Of a stretch of DNA of 61,689 nucleotides, positions 14,026-17,409 are shown one piece after another. This stretch comes from Cellulophaga sp. F20128 (lineage in GTDB: Bacteria > Bacteroidota > Bacteroidia > Flavobacteriales > Flavobacteriaceae). The stretch covers positions 1 through 61,689 of the forward strand of contig NZ_JALKBA010000022.1 of assembly GCF_023015805.1 (NCBI RefSeq), read 5' to 3'. Each line of letters begins with the position of its first letter. Within the stretch, counting starts at the first letter, position 1. The translations under genes and the position numbers were made by a program. Below the pieces are notes generated by a model. The model was not told where the DNA came from. It worked only from the letters and a program-made list of their open reading frames with translations, and did no database searches.

Positions 14026-17000
14026 ATGAATTACGATTTTAAAAAGATTGAAGCCAAGTGGCAAAAATATTGGGCAGAAAACCAAACGTTTAAAGCAGAA
14101 AATAATTCTGATAAAGAAAAATTTTATGTCTTAGATATGTTTCCTTATCCTTCTGGGGCTGGGCTTCATGTTGGTCACCCACTTGGGTATATTGCCAGTG
14201 ATATTTATGCACGTTACAAAAGGCATCAAGGTTTTAATGTGTTGCACCCAATGGGGTACGATTCTTTTGGATTGCCAGCAGAACAATATGCTATTCAGAC
14301 TGGATTACATCCAGCGGTAACTACTTCTATTAATATTGACGGTTGTTTAGATGCAGCGGGTAATATTCTACCAAAATATTTGAATGTCGATGATAGTATT
14401 AAAAATGAAGCATTAATAGATAAAACGATAGCAACTTCAAAAAAAGACGAAAACTATCAAGAGAATATTATAAAAGGGTACAGAAAACAACTAGACAAAA
14501 TAGGTTTTTCTTTCGATTGGAGTCGCGAGGTACGGACTTCTAATCCTGATTATTACAAATGGACACAGTGGATATTTATTCAATTATTTAATTCGTGGTA
14601 CAATAAAGACTCGGATAAGGCTGAGGATATTGCTACTTTAATTGCTCTTTTTGAAAAAGACGGAAATGCAACCGTAAACGCAGTTTCTGATGAAGACATC
14701 CCAGTTTTTACAGCTGATGAATGGAACACATTTGACCCTAAAAAACAACAGGAATTATTATTGCAATACAGACTTACTTATTTGGCCGAAACCGAAGTAA
14801 ATTGGTGTCCGGCTTTGGGAACTGTATTGGCGAATGATGAAATCATAAATGGCGTATCAGAACGTGGTGGGCATCCGGTTGTCCGTAAAAAAATGACGCA
14901 ATGGAGCATGCGCATTTCTGCTTATGCACAACGCCTTCTAGACGATTTAAATACAATAGACTGGCCCCAACCCTTAAAAGACTCACAAACCAATTGGATT
15001 GGAAGAAGTCAAGGTGCTTCGGTCACATTTAAAGTTCTCCCCCTAACCCCCTCCGAAGGAGGGGGGACAGACTCCTCCTCACCAAGATATTACACAGGTA
15101 ATTCAGAAATTTACGGGATACTTTTAGAGCGTGCCAAAGAAATGCGAAAAAATCCAACCGCAGCTGAGGCTAAGCTTTGGGATGAACTTCGCAATAGAAA
15201 TTTAAATGATAAGTTTAGGAGACAACATCCAATTTCTAATTATATCGTCGATTTTGTTTGTATTGAAAAGAATTTAATTATTGAAGTTGATGGGGAGATT
15301 CATCAATACCAATTAGAAAAAGATGACGAACGCGAGTTATTGTTGGAACAGAAAAAAGGATTTACAGTTTTAAGATTTTCCAATGATGATGTTCTTAATA
15401 ATATAGAGGCCGTAATTGCTAAAATTGAAAAAAAACTAAGCTCCCTCTCCTCTGGAGAGGGCTGGGGTGAGGTCGACTTGGACAGGGGGATCGAAGTATT
15501 TACAACAAGACCAGACACTATTTTTGGGGTAAGCTTTATGGTATTAGCTCCAGAGCACGAGCTTGTAGCCACTATTACAACACCAGAACAAAAAGCAGAA
15601 GTTGAAGCCTACATCCAAGCCACCGCAAAACGTAGTGAGCGCGAGCGTATGGCCGATGTAAAAACAATTTCGGGCGCATTTACAGGCGCCTATGCAGAAC
15701 ATCCCTTTTCTAAAGAACCCATTCCTGTTTGGATTGGCGACTATGTTTTAGCTGGCTATGGTACAGGTGCAGTTATGTCTGTTCCTTGTGGTGACCAAAG
15801 GGATTACGACTTTGCAAAACATTTTAATATTCCAATTCCCAATATTTTTGAGGGTGTCGATATTTCTGAAGAAGCTCATGCCGATAAAGACAAAACAGTA
15901 ATAGCGAATTCAGATTTTTTAAACGGATTACCGTATAAGAAAGCGATGAAATTAGCGATATACGAATTGGAAAAATTAGGACAAGGCAAAGGAAAAATCA
16001 ACTACCGTTTGCGCGACGCTGTTTTTAGTAGACAACGGTATTGGGGAGAACCATTTCCTGTGTATTACGTAGACGGAATGCCCCAAATGATAGCTACAGA
16101 GCACTTGCCGATAGCCTTACCCGTAGTTGAAAAATATTTACCCACCGAAACTGGCGAACCACCCTTAGGTAACGCTACCGTTTGGGCTTGGAATACCGTT
16201 ACAAATAAAGTTGTAGACAACAGCGAGATAGATAATGCAACAGTGTGGCCACTAGAATTAAATACTATGCCAGGCTGGGCAGGAAGTAGCTTTTACTTTA
16301 ACCGCTATATGGACCCTACCAATACAGAGGCCATATTTTCTGAGGATGCTATGAACTACTGGCAAGATGTGGATTTATATATTGGTGGTAGTGAGCACGC
16401 AACAGGTCACTTACTATATGCCCGTTTTTGGCAGAAATTCTTGTTCGACAAAGGGGTAGTTCCTAAAAAGGAGTTTGCTAAAAAACTGATCAACCAAGGA
16501 ATGATTACGGGGACGAGTGCTTTTGTTTATAGAGAAGAGGAATCAGGCCAAATAATTTCTAAGGGATTAATTGATGGCAAAATAGTTTCTCCTATTCACG
16601 CAGATGTATCCTTTGTAAATGCTTCTGATGAATTGGATATTGAAGCCTTTAAAAACTGGCGTGAAGAATATAAAGATGCAGCCTTTGTTTTAGAAGATGG
16701 CAAATATATTGTAGGTCGTGAAGTCGAAAAAATGTCCAAATCCAAGTACAATGTGGTAAGTCCAGATAGTATTTGTGAGGACTACGGCGCAGACAGTTTG
16801 CGTTTGTACGAGATGTTCTTAGGGCCATTAGAGCAATCTAAACCTTGGAATACGGCTGGCATTACAGGAACTCATGGATTCTTGAAAAAATTATGGCGAT
16901 TATATCTAGAGGATAATGGCGCCAAGTTCACGGATGCAGCTCCAACAAAAGACAACTTAAAAACATTACACAAAACCATTAAAAAGGTGGCGGAAGATAT

Positions 17001-17409
17001 TGAGAACTTTTCTTTTAATACCTCGGTTTCTACCTTTATGATTTGTGTTAATGAGTTATCGGCACAAAAATGTACTAGTAAAGAAATTCTAGAATCCTTA
17101 GCGATACTTGTTTCTCCATATGCCCCGCATATTGCTGAAGAATTGTGGGAGCAATTGGGAAACACTACTTCTATTGCAACAGCACCCTTTCCTAAATTTG
17201 ATGCCTCACATTTGGTAGAAAGCAGTAAGGAATACCCTATTTCTTTTAATGGCAAAATGCGTTTTAAATTGGAGTTACCTTTAGACCTATCTAAAGAAGA
17301 AATAGAAGCAACTGTAATGGCACACGAAAAAACCATTGAGCAATTACAGGGTAGGGAACCCAAAAAAGTAATTGTAGTACCAGGAAAAATTATAAATATA
17401 GTTGGGTAA
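14026..17409 (+). CDS. leuS: Leucyl-tRNA synthetase with in-frame DUF559 element
   Basis: This 1127-aa LeuS charges tRNA-Leu. HVGH (residues 48-51) and EKMSKSKYN are the class I signatures, and WCPALGTVLANDE, TRPDTIFGVSF, GTGAVMSVPCGDQRDYDF and the C-terminal anticodon-binding domain are intact. Editing-site residues in TTRPDT and the Asp-Arg-Asp motif are kept, so the enzyme is probably active. It is about 150-190 residues longer than usual because of two segments: residues 101-145 near the N-terminus, and residues 338-484 (a DUF559 domain with hairpin DNA ends) between GASVTFKV and IEVFTTRP in the CP1 editing domain. The frame is preserved throughout. No promoter or leader signal is clear. 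Confidence 0.93.
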   Translation: MNYDFKKIEAKWQKYWAENQTFKAENNSDKEKFYVLDMFPYPSGAGLHVGHPLGYIASDIYARYKRHQGFNVLHPMGYDSFGLPAEQYAIQTGLHPAVTTSINIDGCLDAAGNILPKYLNVDDSIKNEALIDKTIATSKKDENYQENIIKGYRKQLDKIGFSFDWSREVRTSNPDYYKWTQWIFIQLFNSWYNKDSDKAEDIATLIALFEKDGNATVNAVSDEDIPVFTADEWNTFDPKKQQELLLQYRLTYLAETEVNWCPALGTVLANDEIINGVSERGGHPVVRKKMTQWSMRISAYAQRLLDDLNTIDWPQPLKDSQTNWIGRSQGASVTFKVLPLTPSEGGGTDSSSPRYYTGNSEIYGILLERAKEMRKNPTAAEAKLWDELRNRNLNDKFRRQHPISNYIVDFVCIEKNLIIEVDGEIHQYQLEKDDERELLLEQKKGFTVLRFSNDDVLNNIEAVIAKIEKKLSSLSSGEGWGEVDLDRGIEVFTTRPDTIFGVSFMVLAPEHELVATITTPEQKAEVEAYIQATAKRSERERMADVKTISGAFTGAYAEHPFSKEPIPVWIGDYVLAGYGTGAVMSVPCGDQRDYDFAKHFNIPIPNIFEGVDISEEAHADKDKTVIANSDFLNGLPYKKAMKLAIYELEKLGQGKGKINYRLRDAVFSRQRYWGEPFPVYYVDGMPQMIATEHLPIALPVVEKYLPTETGEPPLGNATVWAWNTVTNKVVDNSEIDNATVWPLELNTMPGWAGSSFYFNRYMDPTNTEAIFSEDAMNYWQDVDLYIGGSEHATGHLLYARFWQKFLFDKGVVPKKEFAKKLINQGMITGTSAFVYREEESGQIISKGLIDGKIVSPIHADVSFVNASDELDIEAFKNWREEYKDAAFVLEDGKYIVGREVEKMSKSKYNVVSPDSICEDYGADSLRLYEMFLGPLEQSKPWNTAGITGTHGFLKKLWRLYLEDNGAKFTDAAPTKDNLKTLHKTIKKVAEDIENFSFNTSVSTFMICVNELSAQKCTSKEILESLAILVSPYAPHIAEELWEQLGNTTSIATAPFPKFDASHLVESSKEYPISFNGKMRFKLELPLDLSKEEIEATVMAHEKTIEQLQGREPKKVIVVPGKIINIVG
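14326..14460 (+). other. Probable second in-frame insertion in leuS (45 codons)
   Basis: From memory of the family, other LeuS proteins run directly from the HPAVTT region to ENIxxYRKQLDKIGF. Here 45 extra residues (101-145, starting SINIDGCLDAAG and ending KKDENYQ) lie between them. The DNA shows no hairpins or flanking repeats, unlike the DUF559 element downstream. A lineage-specific expansion or a small insertion are both possible; an alignment would settle it. Confidence 0.55.
15037..15477 (+). mobile_element. DUF559 nuclease element with terminal GC-rich hairpins, inside leuS
   Basis: The left end holds the hairpin CCCCCTCC-GAA-GGAGGGGG (15047-15065) preceded by CTCCCCCTAAC. The right end holds CCCTCTCC-TCT-GGAGAGGG (15443-15461) followed by CTGGGGTGAGG. 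The two ends are approximate inverted repeats of each other. Between them is a complete DUF559 domain (LeuS residues about 363-470) with AEAKLWDELRNRNL, FRRQHPI, YIVDFVC, LIIEVDGEIHQ and GFTVLRFSNDDVL, a Vsr-like PD-(D/E)xK nuclease fold. The element length is a multiple of three and both ends read through, so leuS stays open. Exact ends and any target duplication cannot be fixed without an empty-site comparison. Confidence 0.85.

Follow-up and report, generated by a model that had tools for sequence, protein, structure and literature searches.

Results

An insert coding for a predicted nuclease in the reading frame of leuS

The window analyzed here, a stretch of 61,689 nucleotides from Cellulophaga sp. 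F20128, carries a leuS (leucyl-tRNA synthetase) gene at positions 14026-17409 of the forward strand. The gene is one open frame of 1127 amino acids, including an insert across which the frame remains open. Comparison with alleles lacking the element places the whole insert at 15037-15489 (forward strand; residues 338-488), with limits read by eye against relatives that have a plain linker. Its 453 nt encode 151 amino acids, about 105 of which form a nuclease, and they take the place of the roughly 6-residue linker that joins ...VTFKV to IEVFTTRPDT. The insert is ordered as a GC hairpin, an intact DUF559/EDxHD-like nuclease domain, and a second GC hairpin; in the protein, the non-LeuS residues comprise the hairpin-coding LPLTPSEGGG, a linker, the nuclease, and the second hairpin-coding stretch SSLSSGEGWGEV. 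A preliminary description of this DNA had proposed a hairpin-ended DUF559 nuclease unit inserted in frame in leuS at 15037-15477. The single open frame, the Pfam matches, and the alleles of relatives confirm this arrangement and its start, but its end runs slightly further, to 15489.

Pfam identifies class I synthetase, LeuS editing, and anticodon domains in the window LeuS, with DUF559 directly before the stretch matched by the editing-domain model, and the NCBIfam model TIGR00396 (leuS_bact) scores 873 bits on this protein. A second LeuS was not found in the assembly, which is 99.98% complete; the other three matches in this genome had E values of 2e-6 or weaker. The HVGH (residues 48-51) and KMSKS (residues 902-906) motifs are intact and invariant in 17 insert-bearing LeuS proteins (the window and 16 chosen relatives), so the insert-bearing enzyme looks functional. 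The predicted fold of the full-length window LeuS is poor (pLDDT 48). Adjoining the right palindromic end, GGACAGGGGGATC (15480-15492, forward strand) resembles GGTTAGGGGGATT at the right end of the G001 and G002 elements and is possibly a remnant or scar of an earlier occupant of the site. Elsewhere in the protein, a stretch of about 44 residues (residues ~105-149; 14338-14472) is common to the window, G007, and G013 and seems to be absent in the other 15 genomes of the genus.

The DUF559 domain is conserved

The DUF559 (PF04480) Vsr/EDxHD-like nuclease domain lies at 15127-15438 on the forward strand (residues 368-471; Pfam E 1.1e-34), in agreement with the full domain between hairpins described previously, and its profile match of 119 bits compares with a curated cut-off of 20.6. 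In an alignment of the window domain with those of 27 chosen relatives, PF04480 is matched by 28 of 28 sequences, and the E, D, E-x-D-G, H, D, and R columns are invariant; the invariant E21, D49, E60, D62, H66, and D73 are putative counterparts of the EDxHD catalytic set. The domain structure predicted from the 28 sequences (pLDDT 83) matches 3hrl and the catalytic domain of I-Bth0305I (3r3p) in Foldseek, with Vsr lower, and a sequence profile search returned the same first two matches. The match to 3r3p has an E value of 6.2e-5 in Foldseek and 7.8e-7 in hmmsearch, and the PADLOC homing-endonuclease model matches the window nuclease with an E value of 6e-5. Values of dN/dS were 0.03-0.11 in the six of nine DUF559 pairs that had a dS estimate (three pairs gave none, and the metH pair, with a dS of 2.3, is near saturation); therefore, the nuclease is kept under selection in the fused state. 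It is the only domain that Pfam finds within the insert. Because an extended DNA-binding region is absent from the 151 residues, the insert is not a classical member of the EDxHD homing endonucleases. The window genome contains a single DUF559 copy.

Palindromic ends of the insert and of related copies

The left palindromic end, CTCCCCCTAACCCCCTCCGAAGGAGGGGGG (15037-15066, forward strand), contains the hairpin CCCCCTCC-GAA-GGAGGGGG at 15047-15065, with the stem at 15047-15054 and 15058-15065. The right end, CCCTCTCCTCTGGAGAGGGCTGGGGTGAGG (15443-15472, forward strand), contains the hairpin CCCTCTCC-TCT-GGAGAGGG at 15443-15461 (stem 15443-15450 and 15454-15461). As first described, the two ends are approximate inverted repeats of each other, over 29 ungapped columns with a score of 23, but this similarity is just moderately beyond chance for their composition, because dinucleotide shuffling reaches the score in 60 of 2000 trials and random pairing of windows in 8 of 5000. 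The folding energy of the end segments was not above that of shuffles (z of -0.03 and +0.70). Exact matches to CCNCTCCNNNGGAGNGG in the 4.17-Mb assembly are confined to these two hairpins, with four further places at one mismatch; one further CCCCTAGCCCC occurs in the window's own genome, as does one match to the reversed control. An Rfam match to whalefall-1 RNA on the left hairpin (15034-15067, minus strand; 16.1 bits against a gathering threshold of 37, E 0.32) is probably due to chance.

Hairpins flanking the copies in relatives are stronger evidence for the ends than the window's own repeat statistics. Among 47 copies inside genes (G001, G013, and the 45 listed from the family), hairpins of at least 5 G-C pairs within 110 nt were present on the left of 28, on the right of 30, and on both sides of 19, compared to 11 of 654 control windows taken from these ORFs. 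In the wider phylum, the corresponding counts were 30, 29, and 22 of 41 copies, with matches under 70 amino acids and N-containing stretches dropped, versus 20 of 577 control windows. The element ends are often degenerate, since just 12 of the 47 copies have an inverted end similarity that no more than 3 of 300 shuffles attain. Whole elements sought by pattern were matched in 0 of 10 genomes, but the spacing limit was too short for this search to be informative. In G231, which belongs to another genus, one MetH ORF of 1159 amino acids contains two DUF559 copies at two sites, whose coding parts are 81% identical. The DNA of these copies aligns from AGCCCCCC..CCCCCAAAGGGGGAGC to GCTCCCCCTTTGGGGGCGGGGGGGGCT, a stretch bounded by AGCCCCCC and GGGGGGCT, with no homology outside. 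Because homology of the two copies starts and stops at the palindromes, the palindromes are the ends of the element.

Filled and empty alleles in one genus

Among 18 genomes of the genus, the LeuS loop is occupied by DUF559 in three (the window, G001, and G002), by a plain linker in nine, by a 29-bp palindrome reading ASEAKQSH in four (G006, G009, G012, and G014), and by another filler in one (G007); in G013, LeuS is represented by its first 185 residues at a contig end, with the loop unassembled. A MetH match was obtained in 17 of the 18 genomes. DUF559 precedes the B12 domain in G013, and the other 16 MetH proteins have a plain linker of constant length save for one residue in G015. The existence of empty sites, with a plain linker in 9 of 18 LeuS loops, upholds the earlier view of a mobile rather than an old, fixed segment. 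The target duplication that relatives might have revealed was not seen by eye in the leuS or metH comparisons. By eye, filled alleles in these comparisons lack about 18-27 nt of the loop, and this loss is not predicted by simple homing. We had expected ATTGCGAGCG, the palindrome in the LeuS loop of the genus, to be a repeat of high copy number. This candidate was rejected: the pattern occurs once each in just 2 of 18 genomes, both times at leuS, and reveals no repeat family there; the versions in G006 and G012 differ in one base.

Inserts do not simply follow the host gene

Over the parts compared, the LeuS bodies of the window and G001 are 90% identical and their inserts 50%, and in two Arenibacter LeuS proteins these values are 85% and 79% (43 rows, G002 missing). 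A single clade of the three genus inserts was rejected (AU p 0.00029, 44 rows; the clade was named after a first tree had been seen). Inheritance also plays a part, because body and insert distances correlate weakly (Spearman 0.37 over 903 pairs). In the LeuS-body tree, element-free G011 nests among the filled G001 and G002, and loss or local exchange is therefore needed. Comparison of these alleles shows that, in a single genus, the same LeuS loop holds inserts of more than one lineage.

A tree of 66 DUF559 domains (107 columns, many forks unresolved) places the leuS, metH, recG, ileS, and hisD copies in one group (97/94) and the hemD-fused copies in a separate group (100/99). Target-gene labels change 9 times on this tree versus a mean of 38.7 after shuffling, consistent with DUF559 lineages that mostly track target genes. 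The copies at metH sites 1 and 2 are near relatives, as are those of ileS and recG, and two leuS inserts (L078 and L084) fall outside the main leuS group.

Host genes across Bacteroidota

A PF04480 match is present in 143 of 299 family genomes, weak matches included. Among the matches listed, 45 lie in ORFs of at least 300 amino acids: 18 in leuS, 9 in hemD (N-terminal), 8 each in metH and recG, and 1 each in ileS and hisD (C-terminal), where hosts were assigned by flanking motifs and Pfam confirmed one each of hemD, recG, ileS, hisD, and metH. Named genomes yielded 54 loci, 30 of which have DUF559 in the LeuS loop; the others include one MetH (L163), one Prevotella glf (L169), and four short frames, and 18 loci gave no frame and fall outside the host classification. 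In the phylum, 222 of 395 genomes have a DUF559 match. Reading 42 further long-frame loci assigned 31 hosts by their flanks and left 11 unassigned. The 31 comprise metH (7), hsdR (5), hemF (4), leuS at a different site (3), Eco57I-type (3), recG (2), hsdM (2), methylmalonyl-CoA mutase (2), hisF (1), a UvrD-like protein (1), and an M23 peptidase (1). Pfam found DUF559 in ten of ten wider loci scanned and a named host domain in nine, and it confirmed 15 host families in total. No likely vector emerged from searches of phage sequences (2 records) or plasmid sequences (38 records, none reaching 60% identity).

Lone palindromes accompany DUF559

The motif CCCCTARCCCC was counted in 149 family genomes, and the high counts, such as 144 in G050 and 58 in G067, are clear. 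Of 51 genomes with a strong DUF559 match (E below 1e-20), 18 have at least 5 copies, versus 0 of 98 without (Fisher 4e-10); the elements themselves can contribute copies to these counts. The reversed-motif control showed no association with DUF559; G028 has about as many reversed motifs (7 versus 6), and in G095 a single tandem run makes up four of the five matches. We considered the RAYT transposase (PF01797, E under 1e-10) as a confounding mover of the repeats, but it does not explain them: 10 of 31 genomes with DUF559 and no RAYT are motif-rich, compared to 0 of 11 with RAYT and no DUF559. Of the 18 repeat-rich genomes, 10 have no strong PF01797. RAYT alone does, nevertheless, show a weaker association with the repeats (Fisher p 0.014).

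All 14 sites were read in G142, and 8 lie in ORFs longer than 150 amino acids. Three of these are N-terminal extensions, and the others are in leuS (at the end of the element itself and at a second site), ileS, aspS, and mnmE; the ileS-, aspS-, and mnmE-type domains were confirmed by Pfam. The ileS gene of this genome contains a palindrome pair without DUF559 near the editing loop, as judged by translation, and inverted palindrome pairs about 120-130 bp apart occur in G142. In G193, from another genus, the second MetH site has a lone palindrome reading SPLGGDLEAA. For G040, 11 of 14 sites were fetched; seven are in no ORF longer than 150 amino acids and one is inside a hybrid histidine kinase (Pfam). 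Of the first 22 of 144 sites read in G050, 21 are in no such ORF and one is upstream of a start, so that 0 of these 22 lone palindromes are inside a conserved protein. Terminal hairpins thus recur in related genomes with and without DUF559, as expected of a mobile unit, but the window's own genome has no further exact hairpin.

Discussion

Comparison of the genomes shows that conserved genes carry the element in frame, that the nuclease is under purifying selection, and that lone palindromes occur in DUF559-carrying genomes. We think it probable that the insert is a homing-like, unspliced, in-frame nuclease element with REP/RPE-like palindromic ends, whose activity and movement we infer from sequence comparisons. 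The selfish mobile element of the preliminary description is supported by element-free relatives and by palindromes that recur elsewhere in related genomes. Its suggestion that the nuclease may drive spread in the manner of homing endonucleases gains support from the I-Bth0305I fold and from the finding that the genus inserts are not one lineage. Between the two outcomes it had offered for the protein, a tolerated insert is more likely, because neither an intein model nor an Rfam intron was matched; post-translational removal is without support.

This small mobile element would consist of a DUF559 (EDxHD/Vsr-fold) nuclease frame between two inverted REP-like GC palindromes, and it would occupy protein-coding genes permanently, as an in-frame domain that is apparently unspliced and sits on a loop beside conserved motifs. 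The nuclease would cut element-free alleles near the conserved loop flanks, and repair would then copy the element into the cut allele. The palindromes may mark or process the ends and permit occasional jumps to new loops, and short palindromes would be left behind by the element. Only in-frame, stop-free loop insertions would survive, with the palindromes then encoding flexible P/G-rich linkers and the host protein continuing to work. Related elements in other Bacteroidota housekeeping proteins suggest a selfish gene that spreads while residing within functional proteins. More tentatively, we propose a phylum-wide class of palindrome-bounded nuclease genes that may home into loops of essential proteins and stay unspliced, where LeuS, MetH, RecG, IleS, and other hosts would serve as vehicles for nuclease expression and short palindromic derivatives would generally supply Bacteroidota proteins with new loop sequence.

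The chief alternative, which we consider possible but distinctly less likely, is a two-party system in which the palindromes are REP/RPE-like mobile units moved by another activity or by DUF559 in trans, the DUF559 gene is one cargo between two of them, and the same loops are occupied repeatedly because they tolerate insertion, not because of homing. This alternative shares with the homing-like element the expectation of mobile, in-frame, apparently unspliced DNA. It would account for DUF559-free palindromes at similar loops (the second leuS site, ileS, aspS, and mnmE in G142 and metH site 2 in G193), for the unrelated 29-bp palindrome in the same LeuS loop of four genus genomes, and for the intergenic REP-like copies in G050. 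However, the motif is enriched only in DUF559 genomes, irrespective of RAYT, and the largely target-specific DUF559 lineages are unexpected for random cargo.

The remaining alternatives are far less probable than a two-party system. An old domain gain, in which DUF559 is a functional part of LeuS, MetH, and RecG retained for host benefit, fits purifying selection on the nuclease and the invariant HVGH and KMSKS motifs of 17 apparently functional enzymes, but is improbable given patchy presence within a genus, inserts that do not follow the host gene, 15 different Pfam-confirmed host families, and palindromic ends. Removal of the insert from protein or RNA as a cryptic intein or intron is suggested by the pattern of a nuclease inside a conserved gene, which is that of inteins and group I introns, and by the annotation of a relative of the window nuclease as a mobile intron protein (3r3p). 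We judge it very improbable: no intein or splicing (Hint) model was matched in Pfam or NCBIfam, no Rfam intron was found in 14900-15700, where the sub-threshold whalefall-1 match stands alone, and the frame is open throughout an insert of 151 residues that holds a nuclease of about 105. The candidate intein and intron are accordingly unsupported. An assembly or annotation artefact is scarcely credible, as the same arrangement occurs in dozens of independent genomes, including the single-contig G142 and G231, and in the named complete chromosome of Maribacter halichondriae (L164).

Inteins with a homing domain place an in-frame nuclease in conserved housekeeping genes. The element resembles them in this respect and differs in that no splicing domain was detected. 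It also differs from classical transposons, since inspection of the leuS and metH comparisons by eye revealed no target-site duplication. Rickettsia palindromic elements (RPEs; Ogata 2000, 2002, as reviewed in PMC10969869) are about 150 bp, contain a short ORF, and lie in frame in unrelated genes, apparently tolerated as an extra peptide. Palindromes in frame inside conserved protein genes were likewise found here, both as lone palindromes and as hairpin-flanked copies. In contrast, the description of RPEs in that review does not mention a nuclease, the longer form here encloses a conserved nuclease, and the phylum differs; it is by these descriptions that the two are set apart. REP/RAYT REPtrons have GC palindromes with an endonuclease gene between them and some copies inside ORFs (PMC3733652), to which the elements here, with inverted pairs about 120-130 bp apart in G142, are similar; however, RAYT is an HUH tyrosine transposase (Y1_Tnp; PMC3733652), the nuclease here is DUF559, and the presence of RAYT fails to account for the repeats.

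I-Bth0305I is an intron-encoded EDxHD homing endonuclease with extended DNA-binding regions (PMC3943268), and a DUF559 gene has already been placed in this family in a paper on Thermosynechococcus (PMC9403480). The likeness lies in the nuclease fold, in recurrence at one site of conserved genes, and in alleles with and without the element; filled and empty alleles, and spread that does not follow the host gene, were both found. Here, however, the nuclease appears to remain in the host protein without splicing, and it has palindromic ends. Selfish nucleases in highly conserved genes are generally tied to introns or inteins that spare the host gene from harm, according to the account in PMC3943268; the present element appears to dispense with splicing by using loops and linker-coding ends. 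Palindromes in frame (RPEs; PMC10969869) and REPs inside genes (PMC3733652) are already known from these accounts, and titles and abstract openings in the open-licence literature yielded no description of a palindrome-enclosed nuclease inside essential proteins. If correct, this interpretation would add to the ways in which mobile DNA gives rise to protein insertions and would provide REP-like repeats with a nuclease partner outside the RAYT system, and it would explain DUF559 domains within many Bacteroidota enzymes.

Several single loci have additional features. The leuS genes at L115, L146, L149, and L151 have extra palindrome-like coding segments or longer loops (172-219 amino acids) beside DUF559, which suggests repeated insertion at one site. 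At L125 (G090), two DUF559 ORFs 1.4 kb apart have equal length, score, and printed flanking residues, and one is beside an N run, consistent with either a recent duplication or an assembly effect. The DUF559-containing HsdR at L291 also has a GIY-YIG domain (residues 251-316), another nuclease type known from homing enzymes. Finally, the UvrD-like helicase at L296 contains a leuS-type DUF559 with the GYMTGGN motif, perhaps as the result of a jump from leuS.
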